DNA of 61,763 nt from Pseudomonadota bacterium. GTDB taxonomy: Bacteria; Pseudomonadota; Gammaproteobacteria; Burkholderiales; Methylophilaceae. Under the pieces are notes generated by a model that was not told where the DNA came from, did not search any database, and worked only from the letters and a program-made list of their open reading frames with translations. The translations under genes were made by a program, and so were the position numbers. Of this stretch, positions 33,539 to 61,763 are shown one piece after another (position 1 is the stretch's first letter; each line of letters opens with the position of its first letter). The stretch spans positions 1 to 61,763 of the forward strand of contig JAKQTN010000065.1 in NCBI GenBank assembly GCA_029563075.1, in the 5' to 3' direction.

Positions 33539-34903
33539 GTGGATTCAAATCAGTCGCAACGTGACACTTTATCCCTGCTTAAAGCTGGCAAACTGCAAGG
33601 CAGCAAGCTGCTTAAACTTTCTTGCGGGTTAAATCACTTTCCAACAGAAATTTTTGATTTAGCTGACACACTAGAGATTCTGGATCTCTCTGGCAATGCG
33701 CTTTCATCACTGCCGGATGACCTGAACCGATTACACAAACTCCGCATTTTATTCTGCTCTTCCAACCAGTTTACTCGTGTACCAGAAGTGCTGGGTAAAT
33801 GCCAGAACTTAAGCATGATCGGCTTTAAAGCCAATCAAATCGAACACATTCCTGAAAGCGCAATCCCAACCCAGACCTTGCGCTGGCTTATTCTGACAGA
33901 CAATGCAATCAAAACGCTTCCTGCATCAATAGGCAATTGCAAGGACATGCAAAAACTCATGCTGGCGGGTAACCAGCTTAACAGACTGCCAGAATCATTG
34001 GCAAACTGTAAAAATCTGGAATTGCTTAGAATCTCTGCCAACCAGCTGGAATCACTTCCAGACTGGCTATTCAGCTTACCTAAACTTAGCTGGCTCGCGT
34101 ATGCCGGCAACCCGTTTTGCAATCAGATCGAAAACAGTCTGCTCGCAAAACATAATATCCCCCAAATTGACTGGCACGCGCTGCATTTGCAACAACTGTT
34201 GGGCGAAGGCGCTTCTGGCCTGATCTATCAAGCTTTGTGGAAAGCTAAAAATGCTTCAGGAGATTCTGAAAGCAAAGCGGTTGCGGTAAAAATGTTCAAA
34301 GCCAACATCACCAGTGATGGCTTACCTCGCTGCGAAGTGCATGCTACCGTACTGGCAGGCCAACATCCTAATTTATTGGGCTTTGAAGGCGTTATTGGCA
34401 AACACCCAGACGGCATGACCGGCCTGGTGATGCCGTTGATGCACGCCGATTTGACCGTGCTGGCTAACCCACCCAGCTTTGAAACGTGCAGCCGAGATGT
34501 GTATTCACCCAATACACAGCTTACGCTAGACACTGTATTGCATATTGCTCATAACATAGCGTCTGCGGTTGCACACTTGCATAAACAAGGCATCACGCAT
34601 GGTGATTTATATGCACATAACATCCTCAGCAATGGCCAGGGCAAATGCATTTTAAGTGACTTTGGAGGAGCTTCATTTTTGCCGGAAGACAAAATCCAGC
34701 ATTCACAGCTACTGCAACGTCTCGAGACGCGCGCATTTGCCTGCCTACTGGAGGAGTTGTTAGATCATTGCGCTATAAAAAACCACACCACAGAAGGGTT
34801 GTGGAAGCTGCAGGCAGAATGCGCTCAGCATGAGATTGGCAAACGACCGCTATTCAGCGAAATCATGCAACAATTAAACTTGTTTCGCAAAAAGTACGCT
34901 TGA
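33539..34903 (+). CDS. Leucine-rich-repeat protein kinase
   Basis: The 454-residue protein has two parts. Residues 27-192 form seven or eight leucine-rich repeats of the LxxLPxxL type. Residues 215-450 form a eukaryotic-like protein kinase domain: glycine loop GEGASG at 222-227, Lys251 in VAVKMF, a likely helix-C Glu266, catalytic loop HGDLYAHN at 354-361, and metal-binding DFG at 374-376. In the loop, HGD replaces the usual HRD, and the Lys two residues after Asp is absent (DLY), so activity should be tested. There is no membrane segment. The start is GTG at 33539. Similar LRR-kinase fusions exist in other proteobacteria, but targets are unknown. Confidence 0.88.
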   Translation: MDSNQSQRDTLSLLKAGKLQGSKLLKLSCGLNHFPTEIFDLADTLEILDLSGNALSSLPDDLNRLHKLRILFCSSNQFTRVPEVLGKCQNLSMIGFKANQIEHIPESAIPTQTLRWLILTDNAIKTLPASIGNCKDMQKLMLAGNQLNRLPESLANCKNLELLRISANQLESLPDWLFSLPKLSWLAYAGNPFCNQIENSLLAKHNIPQIDWHALHLQQLLGEGASGLIYQALWKAKNASGDSESKAVAVKMFKANITSDGLPRCEVHATVLAGQHPNLLGFEGVIGKHPDGMTGLVMPLMHADLTVLANPPSFETCSRDVYSPNTQLTLDTVLHIAHNIASAVAHLHKQGITHGDLYAHNILSNGQGKCILSDFGGASFLPEDKIQHSQLLQRLETRAFACLLEELLDHCAIKNHTTEGLWKLQAECAQHEIGKRPLFSEIMQQLNLFRKKYA

Positions 34904-60667: not shown

Positions 60668-60761
60668 GGAGAGCTGGCCGAGTGGTCGAAGGCACTTCCC
60701 TGCTAAGGAAGCATACGGGCTTAAATCTGTATCGAGGGTTCGAATCCCTCGCTCTCCGCCA
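60668..60761 (+). tRNA. tRNA-Ser (anticodon GCU)
   Basis: The acceptor arms GGAGAGC and GCTCTCC pair perfectly, the discriminator is G, and CCA is encoded. The anticodon loop CTGCTAA gives GCU (60702-60704), reading AGC/AGU. A long variable arm, as expected for serine tRNA, lies between the anticodon and T stems (TACGGGCTTAAATCTGTA). Confidence 0.96.
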
Positions 60762-60828: not shown

Positions 60829-60905
60829 GCGCCCGTAGCTCAGCTGGATAGAGTACTTGGCTACGAACCAAGGGGTCAGGAGTTCGAATCTCTTCGGGCG
60901 CACCA
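60829..60905 (+). tRNA. tRNA-Arg (anticodon ACG)
   Basis: The 77-nt gene has a 7-bp acceptor stem GCGCCCG/CGGGCGC, discriminator A and encoded CCA. The anticodon loop CTACGAA between CTTGG and CCAAG gives ACG (60863-60865). The T-loop TTCGAATC is standard. An accessory region starts right after it. Confidence 0.97.
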
Positions 60906-60913
60906 TATAAAAC

Positions 60914-60945
60914 AAAGGGTTAGCAATTAGCTAACCCTTTTTGTT
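60914..60945. terminator. Terminator after tRNA-Arg
   Basis: AAAGGGTTAGC and GCTAACCCTTT form a stem around a 5-base loop, followed by TTGTTTT. T-rich sequence on the other strand means it could also end the minus-strand proteasome-like gene. Confidence 0.82.
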
Positions 60946-60951
60946 TTCATT

Positions 60952-60973
60952 TTGTGCTACCCTTGTGCTACTT
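60952..60973. repeat. TTGTGCTAC direct repeat
   Basis: The 9-mer TTGTGCTAC occurs twice with an 11-bp period (60952 and 60963), just beyond tRNA-Arg. Such paired short repeats next to a tRNA 3' end recall integrase arm sites of integrative elements. No integrase gene is seen in the window. Confidence 0.35.
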
Positions 60974-60991
60974 TTATTCATATTACAAACA

Positions 60992-61612
60992 TTAACTATT
61001 GCTCCAACTTATTTCTTGCAACTCACGTAATCCATTTTCACTAACCAGAACAACTTCAACCTCATCTACCGTGTCAGAAACAGAATTTTCAATCAAGCCA
61101 TGATTTGCGATAGCTCTCGCAACATCACTCTTTAGATTTTCCACTTCTTTATCTACCCAATCACCTTCAATTTTCAATTTTTTCAAGTCATTTGTATTTC
61201 CTCTCGCTATAATATTCTCCGAAATTTTTCTTATCCCTTGTTGACCCTTTATTATTTCGATTTCATAGACAGATACAGCACCATTTTCCGGCCCTGCAAG
61301 TAAAATTGACATCCTAGGCAAAGGATTAAAAGAACTAAACCTCTCCAACAAAATATTACACATTTCTTTGACTGTATCACCTGCAATGATTGTTTTCATG
61401 ATTGCTGGAACATTGTCCTCTGCTCGATTACTTATCGGACCATTTCCGTAAGTCATTGCCACATATATATTATTAAACTTAAATAGTTTTTGATCCTTAC
61501 CTGCCCTGAAATTAGTTTGATTTCCAGATACATCAATATCAGCTATTAATACACGAGTATCTGCTGCCATCACCACTCCATCTTTACACCTGATTGATAT
61601 GAGTTGTGTCAT
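60992..61612 (-). CDS. Orphan proteasome-family (Ntn-hydrolase) peptidase
   Basis: The 206-residue protein aligns by eye with 20S proteasome beta subunits and HslV. With Met removed, Thr1 starts TQLISIRCKDGVVMAADTR, placing Asp17 and Arg19 exactly where proteasomes have them. The Lys33 equivalent is Lys41 in DQKLFKF, after an eight-residue insertion. SILLAGPENGAVSVYEI and VEVVLVSENGLREL match later strands; the Asp166 position is unclear. There is no propeptide. I chose ATG 61612 because it exposes Thr; ATG 61618 and upstream GTG 61633 are also in frame, but 61633 lies in the IS end. Bacterial relatives include HslV, Anbu and the betaproteobacterial homologue BPH; I cannot tell which is nearest. 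No ATPase partner is in the window, and the DNA is visibly AT-rich. Confidence 0.82.
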   Translation of the reverse strand: MTQLISIRCKDGVVMAADTRVLIADIDVSGNQTNFRAGKDQKLFKFNNIYVAMTYGNGPISNRAEDNVPAIMKTIIAGDTVKEMCNILLERFSSFNPLPRMSILLAGPENGAVSVYEIEIIKGQQGIRKISENIIARGNTNDLKKLKIEGDWVDKEVENLKSDVARAIANHGLIENSVSDTVDEVEVVLVSENGLRELQEISWSNS

Positions 61613-61622
61613 TAACATAGCT

Positions 61623-61763
61623 TGAATCGCCACTAGTTTTGTAGACGCTAGTCAGCCATAGTTTTAAATTGATTTTCGTAGTCTATCGGAGATAACAAGT
61701 TATTGGAATTGTGACGTCGTTTTGAGTTGTAGAACAACTCTATGTAGTCAAATATATCCTGTC
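61623..61763 (-). mobile_element. Terminal part of an IS3-family insertion sequence
   Basis: The boundary is set at TGAATCGCC (61623), followed by a likely terminal inverted repeat up to about 61650 (TGAATCGCCACTAGTTTTG...). This resembles ends of IS3-subgroup elements. Inside is the 3' end of the transposase frame. The other end and any target duplication are beyond the window. The element lies about 11 bp from the start codon of the proteasome-like gene. Confidence 0.75.
61648..61763 (-). CDS. IS3-family transposase, C-terminal fragment
   Basis: The last ~38 residues of an IS3-type OrfB transposase are visible, cut by the window edge. The motif DYIELFYNSKRRHNSNNLLS followed by Pro-Ile-Asp-Tyr-Glu matches the family C-terminus (YI..FYN..R.H..L...SP..YE). 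It ends Lys-Thr-Met-Ala-Asp-stop inside the terminal inverted repeat. Confidence 0.88.
   Translation of the reverse strand, partial: QDIFDYIELFYNSKRRHNSNNLLSPIDYENQFKTMAD

Follow-up and report, generated by a model that had tools for sequence, protein, structure and literature searches.

The closest described systems to the gene reported here are the proteasome-like proteins of bacteria and archaea. Fuchs, Alva and Lupas (2021, PMC8665760) described 22 further proteasome-like families from both domains, which are divergent, in many cases rare or of narrow distribution and in some cases borne by phages or by horizontal gene transfer (HGT). No co-occurring AAA+ interactors were identified for these 22 families, and propeptides were seen only in the proteasome beta subunit and HslV. 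The same study describes connectase as a monomeric relative that acts as a ligase and has an insertion between S3 and S4. Anbu lacks a propeptide, and its initiator methionine is removed (PMC5666114). For BPH, PMC5777263 gives Lys-37 as the catalytic lysine, a precedent for a displaced lysine, and names hsp33, argG and pyruvate dehydrogenase genes as genomic contexts. Here we analyse a gene for a proteasome-like protein of 206 amino acids (aa) on a contig from a bacterium of the family Methylophilaceae (GCA_029563075.1, JAKQTN010000065.1). The window is this entire contig (C7, 1-61763), which terminates inside an insertion sequence (IS). Further literature searches yielded nothing nearer to this protein than the families of PMC8665760. 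An earlier note on the same DNA had counted HslV, Anbu, BPH and PrcB as the bacterial members, a list that is outdated by these 22 families. Given the same families, its suggestion of a new self-compartmentalising protease or a non-canonical member shrinks to a further, unassigned proteasome-like homolog.

A candidate proteasome-like hydrolase beside tRNA-Arg

We read the gene, with a probability of roughly 60%, as encoding a stand-alone proteasome-like N-terminal nucleophile (Ntn) hydrolase that was brought by a mobile element to a tRNA-Arg site and that would act as a threonine hydrolase assembling as a homo-oligomer. Direct support comes from an intact open reading frame (ORF), triad residues in register, a low-confidence fold match, a foreign base composition, the position at a hotspot and the fact that no HslUV was detected in the genome. 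The protein is distantly related to known proteasome-like enzymes and represents a kind already described, not a new machine.

The ORF is uninterrupted over 206 codons, from the start codon of a Met-Thr beginning at 61610-61612 to the stop codon at 60992-60994. Its guanine-plus-cytosine (GC) content by codon position (0.461/0.340/0.272) is coding-like, and the GC content of the gene is 0.358 as compared to 0.485 in positions 1-60600 of the window. When the threonine directly after the methionine is numbered Thr1, Asp17 and Arg19 stand in register, and in the alignment the first lysine of a K-L-F-K-F motif is residue 41, eight residues later than Lys33 of the archaeal proteasome beta subunit. 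The residues with predicted catalytic roles are thus Thr1, Asp17 and Lys41, whose archaeal counterparts in the alignment are Thr1, Asp or Glu17 and Lys33. Sequence and alignment thereby bear out what the earlier note had read from this frame, namely its 206 residues, the threonine after the methionine, the register of Asp17 and Arg19 and the lysine of the motif.

A combined profile of 14 HslV, 12 Anbu and eight "BPH-set" sequences, three of which are actually HslV, scored the protein at 13.7 bits, whereas none of 1000 shuffled sequences exceeded 5.3 bits; the aligned part comprises residues 2-48 only. The low-confidence structure model matches the proteasome at the level of the fold, with an order of strands and helices similar to that of the archaeal beta subunit and with helices H1 and H2 modelled at residues 62-73 and 81-92. 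The proteasome fold proposed in the earlier note has tentative support from low-confidence models and from a profile match above shuffles. Coordinates of the gene and its surroundings are given in Table 1.

Table 1. Features at the right end of the window.
Feature	Position	Strand	Basis or remark
tRNA-Ser(gct)	60668..60761	plus	host backbone
tRNA-Arg(acg)	60829..60905	plus	downstream of the gene
Short AT-rich gap from tRNA-Arg to the gene, with a terminator-like stem (by eye)	60906..60991		sequence
Candidate proteasome-like (N-terminal-threonine) protein gene, 206 aa	60992..61612 (stop codon included)	minus	ORF, profile and fold comparison
Alternative in-frame ATG, would give Met-Leu-Met-Thr...	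61616-61618	minus	sequence
IS right end: end of transposase gene and terminal repeat, cut by contig end	61623..61763	minus	100% recurrence on C50 and C44

Comparison with described families

The protein did not fall into any of the HslV, Anbu and BPH families. The HslV profile gave 8.8-9.2 bits compared to 268-324 bits for held-out HslV members, and scored two archaeal beta sequences higher than this protein, at 22-23 bits. With the Anbu profile we obtained 4.0 and 2.8 bits, where held-out members reached 271-417, and with a profile of four clean BPH members 7.1 bits (145-308 for BPH members left out one at a time), a score reached by 0 of 200 shuffles. The BPH and HslV tests had been repeated with these four clean members, excluding L102, which is BPH by sequence, and two duplicates. 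HslV membership was rejected on these scores and because no HslU exceeded the cut-off in the genome, where the best TIGR00390 piece reached 97.7 bits against 362.45; Anbu membership was rejected with a score far below held-out members and within the range of shuffles, and BPH membership on its score. With 15.6 bits against a cut-off of 224 for TIGR03634, the NCBIfam model of the archaeal beta subunit, assignment to that equivalog was rejected as well. The profile comparison thus agrees with the earlier view of the protein as non-canonical and outside HslV, Anbu and BPH. None of these three families appeared among the best 50 matches of each PDB list, which is not evidence against them. A search of the genome for PF00227 gave no match at E 0.001 and one at 0.082 under a looser limit, presumably this gene.

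The best sequence matches were archaeal proteasome beta proteins, from Pacearchaeota (27% identity) and Archaeoglobus (25%), a closeness that may be overstated by selection on shared words. A profile of this pair gave 23.9 bits (0/200 shuffles), which is a biased score as the pair was picked via shared 8-residue words. In contrast to the archaeal proteasome, Lys is found at 41 and not 33, no propeptide is visible and no other PF00227 protein, and so no alpha subunit, was detected in the genome. With BPH the protein shares the Met-Thr start, the lack of a known ATPase partner and a displaced, here predicted, catalytic lysine, and like BPH it has no propeptide in the frame as visible, but none of hsp33, argG and the pyruvate dehydrogenase genes adjoins its gene. 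Anbu likewise begins with Met-Thr and has Asp17-Thr-Arg19; Anbu frames are however about 250 aa and longer, and no Anbu operon genes occur on the visible side of this gene. The likeness to HslV would consist of Thr1 and the general fold as modelled.

Among the BPH genes themselves, an ORF at 1036 of L117 (G231:C3) is a divergent BPH-like one with a different S3-S4 segment that still scores 145 bits against a profile of three other BPH members. In L118, L120 and L121 the BPH gene has an Hsp33-like gene (by eye) behind it on the same strand, in agreement with one published BPH context.

The protein might instead belong to one of the 22 families of PMC8665760, for example as a divergent member of WPH, GPH, PHD or the phage-linked AAH type, for which we see slightly less than even odds and under which the mechanism proposed below would still hold. 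Compared by published description, these families are divergent like this protein, with some borne by phages or HGT and without AAA+ partners or propeptides, and in a comparison with viral structures the top match was a phage protein named proteasome beta, most other matches being unrelated or unnamed. On the other hand, PHROGs contained no family for the protein, and tblastn found nothing at E 1 among 50,697 phage and 72,556 plasmid records. The phage-linked PPH family, with about 140 aa and no H2, is a misfit to a protein of 206 aa with H1 and H2 modelled at low confidence. A further possibility, which we put forward tentatively and rate below such membership, is a proteasome-like subfamily outside the published set that travels as cargo of tRNA-Arg integrative elements, works without an ATPase in a genome that has neither HslUV nor another detectable proteasome-type protease, and whose substrate site is reshaped by Lys41 on an extended S3-S4 segment.

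Close relatives were not found. Protein searches of 187 genomes of the family, 399 of the order and 398 of the phylum (overlapping samples, each including the own genome) returned the gene itself only, IMG/VR viral contigs and E. coli genomes contained no relatives, and PADLOC gave no match. A pattern scan of contigs, which depends on shared short words and which distant relatives can escape, gave 172 matches, two of which encode relatives, both of them archaeal proteasome beta genes. A three-row profile (A1) matched 133 of 349 genomes (own included), with an HslV-type ORF in 29 of 29 other matches examined. This shows rarity of the protein at close range and not its absence, since the scans miss distant relatives and metagenomes lay outside the search.

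Proposed mechanism and evidence against it

In the mechanism we propose, methionine aminopeptidase would remove Met1 and thereby expose Thr1. The catalytic centre would be formed by Thr1, Asp17 and Lys41, the latter replacing Lys33 and being shifted by an S3-S4 segment that is longer by eight residues. Activity would arise on assembly of the subunits, probably into a homo-oligomeric ring or split ring, and unfolded proteins or peptides might be cleaved without a dedicated ATPase, as the authors of PMC8665760 propose for BPH. The gene would still be expressed behind the IS.

The longer S3-S4 segment (about eight residues) also recalls connectase with its S3-S4 insertion (PMC8665760), and the protein could accordingly be no protease but a protein ligase of the proteasome-like type or a different Ntn enzyme. 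We regard this as improbable, as connectase is without H1-H2 while two helices are modelled here, and as eight residues would be too few for the two-helix insertion of connectase.

Several results weigh against the reading as a proteasome-like hydrolase. Both structure models were of low confidence, with a predicted local distance difference test (pLDDT) score of 44.4 and 41.9, the second, for which two archaeal sequences were added, being no better; Foldseek gave no match at E 0.001, and residues 138-206 were barely tested in the fold comparison. Ser129 and Asp166 of the proteasome are not retained in the protein when the two are aligned by eye. The Pfam model PF00227 scored 13.5 bits, below its curated cut-off of 22.4 and slightly behind the unrelated model LPD14 (13.9 bits), and the best phmmer match in PDB was an unrelated chain. 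The Anbu profile failed to separate the protein from shuffles, 3 of 200 of which reached 4.0 bits, and in one of two runs with the HslV profile 1 of 200 shuffles reached the score of the protein (0/200 in the other). With no near relative found there is no argument from conservation, and the native 5' end of the gene was not seen. Scores under curated cut-offs with unrelated families near or ahead, together with the low-confidence models, would also be expected from a chance or convergent match of a protein that is not proteasome-like, which we consider very improbable.

Proteasome-like homologs without partners are largely uncharacterised, and an example at a mobile hotspot adds to the picture of their spread. 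The protein is small and tractable for asking whether a lone subunit assembles and cuts. The gene alone opens no new kind of system.

The tRNA-Arg site

The gap between tRNA-Arg and the gene contains a doubled GTAGCACAA motif (minus strand). The region from lysC to the tRNAs was matched at least partly in 15 of 15 genomes of the genus (own included), in G171 by tRNA-like pieces only. We compared eight loci of other genomes, each extending 0.9 kb or more past the tRNA match. In three of them the frame adjacent to tRNA-Arg encodes a tyrosine integrase (L017, L019) or a serine recombinase (L022); other genes follow the tRNA in L018, L020, L021, L027 and L030, the last of which matches part of the tRNA only. 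An island origin of the gene is likely, judged from sequence, because of its low GC content and the integrase and recombinase genes at the same tRNA in relatives. Against such an origin, a search of the genome for another copy of the tRNA end, allowing up to three mismatches, returned none, and no island borders are visible. Horizontal acquisition, as had been suggested earlier, is supported by the foreign base composition and the position at the tRNA-Arg hotspot.

In one relative (G165:C16, ~129135-150640) about 20 kb separate tRNA-Ser from tRNA-Arg, and the 3' region of tRNA-Arg is present once more about 1.1 kb further along, an arrangement that resembles inserted elements.

The insertion sequence and the upstream side of the gene

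The 141 bases from 61623 to the end of the window recur on C50 and C44, and the copy on C44 has its two ends and encodes a transposase in which rve and HTH_21 domains were recognised. From this layout and these domains we take the IS to be IS3-like. Its end is separated by 10 nucleotides (nt) from the Met-Thr ATG and by 4 nt from the upstream in-frame ATG, and a further in-frame start, GTG at 61631-61633, is located within the IS. The native promoter, ribosome-binding site and start were not observed because the end of the IS and the end of the contig lie directly upstream. Two statements of the earlier note stand only in part for this reason: threonine does follow the ATG, but the lack of a propeptide is not established with an IS end 10 nt upstream and the contig ending there, and the same contig end leaves the lack of an adjacent ATPase partner not established, although none was recognised by eye on the candidate contigs described below.

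This position would also fit a decapitated remnant, in which the IS removed the promoter, the ribosome-binding site and perhaps N-terminal codons, so that the gene would be unexpressed and its Met-Thr start accidental. Besides the short distances to both ATG codons, inspection by eye reveals no clear ribosome-binding site before either of them. We consider a remnant unlikely, though clearly less so than a ligase: the frame is intact over 206 codons, the threonine after the methionine is Thr1 by the register of the archaeal beta subunit, the Anbu and BPH genes examined also begin with Met-Thr, and IS ends can provide promoters.

Right ends of the IS were found on C7, C50 and C44 and left ends on C44 and C78 only, so that one of the latter two contigs should, by this count of ends and barring a missing contig, be the lost upstream side of the gene. 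No exact direct repeat occurs immediately at the IS ends for any pairing of contigs; C78 is favoured by a possible direct repeat of 5 bases, GCTAT, which on either side lies one base away from the IS end and is not relied on. C44 carries at the junction a recombinase-like C-terminal piece, for which Pfam gave a weak unrelated match only, and in the stretch read also ABC-F-like, regulator-like and transporter-like genes (names by eye). C78 carries an outer-membrane-like gene (PF13557) without start at the junction as well as moaA and nitrate reductase genes, the last two named by eye. In four other genomes (60 searched, own included) this PF13557 gene was matched with different neighbours and signal-peptide-like starts (by eye), which leaves the pairing unsettled. 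No AAA+ protease ATPase was recognised by eye near the junction in 6.6 kb of C44 or 12 kb of C78.

At 4649-5330 of C44 the recombinase-like C-terminal piece (by eye) is interrupted by the two-ended copy, the contig stopping at the IS right end, and at 76-894 of C78 the PF13557 gene has had its start removed by the same IS as at the proteasome-like gene. C50 (1-910) carries the right end of the IS together with small AT-rich ORFs and a fragment containing a serine recombinase domain (PF07508), immediately past a glmS-like gene, in a position that we take to be a known type of insertion site.

Elsewhere in the window, a single protein encoded among housekeeping genes at 33539-34903 combines leucine-rich-like repeats with a following kinase-like domain (by eye).
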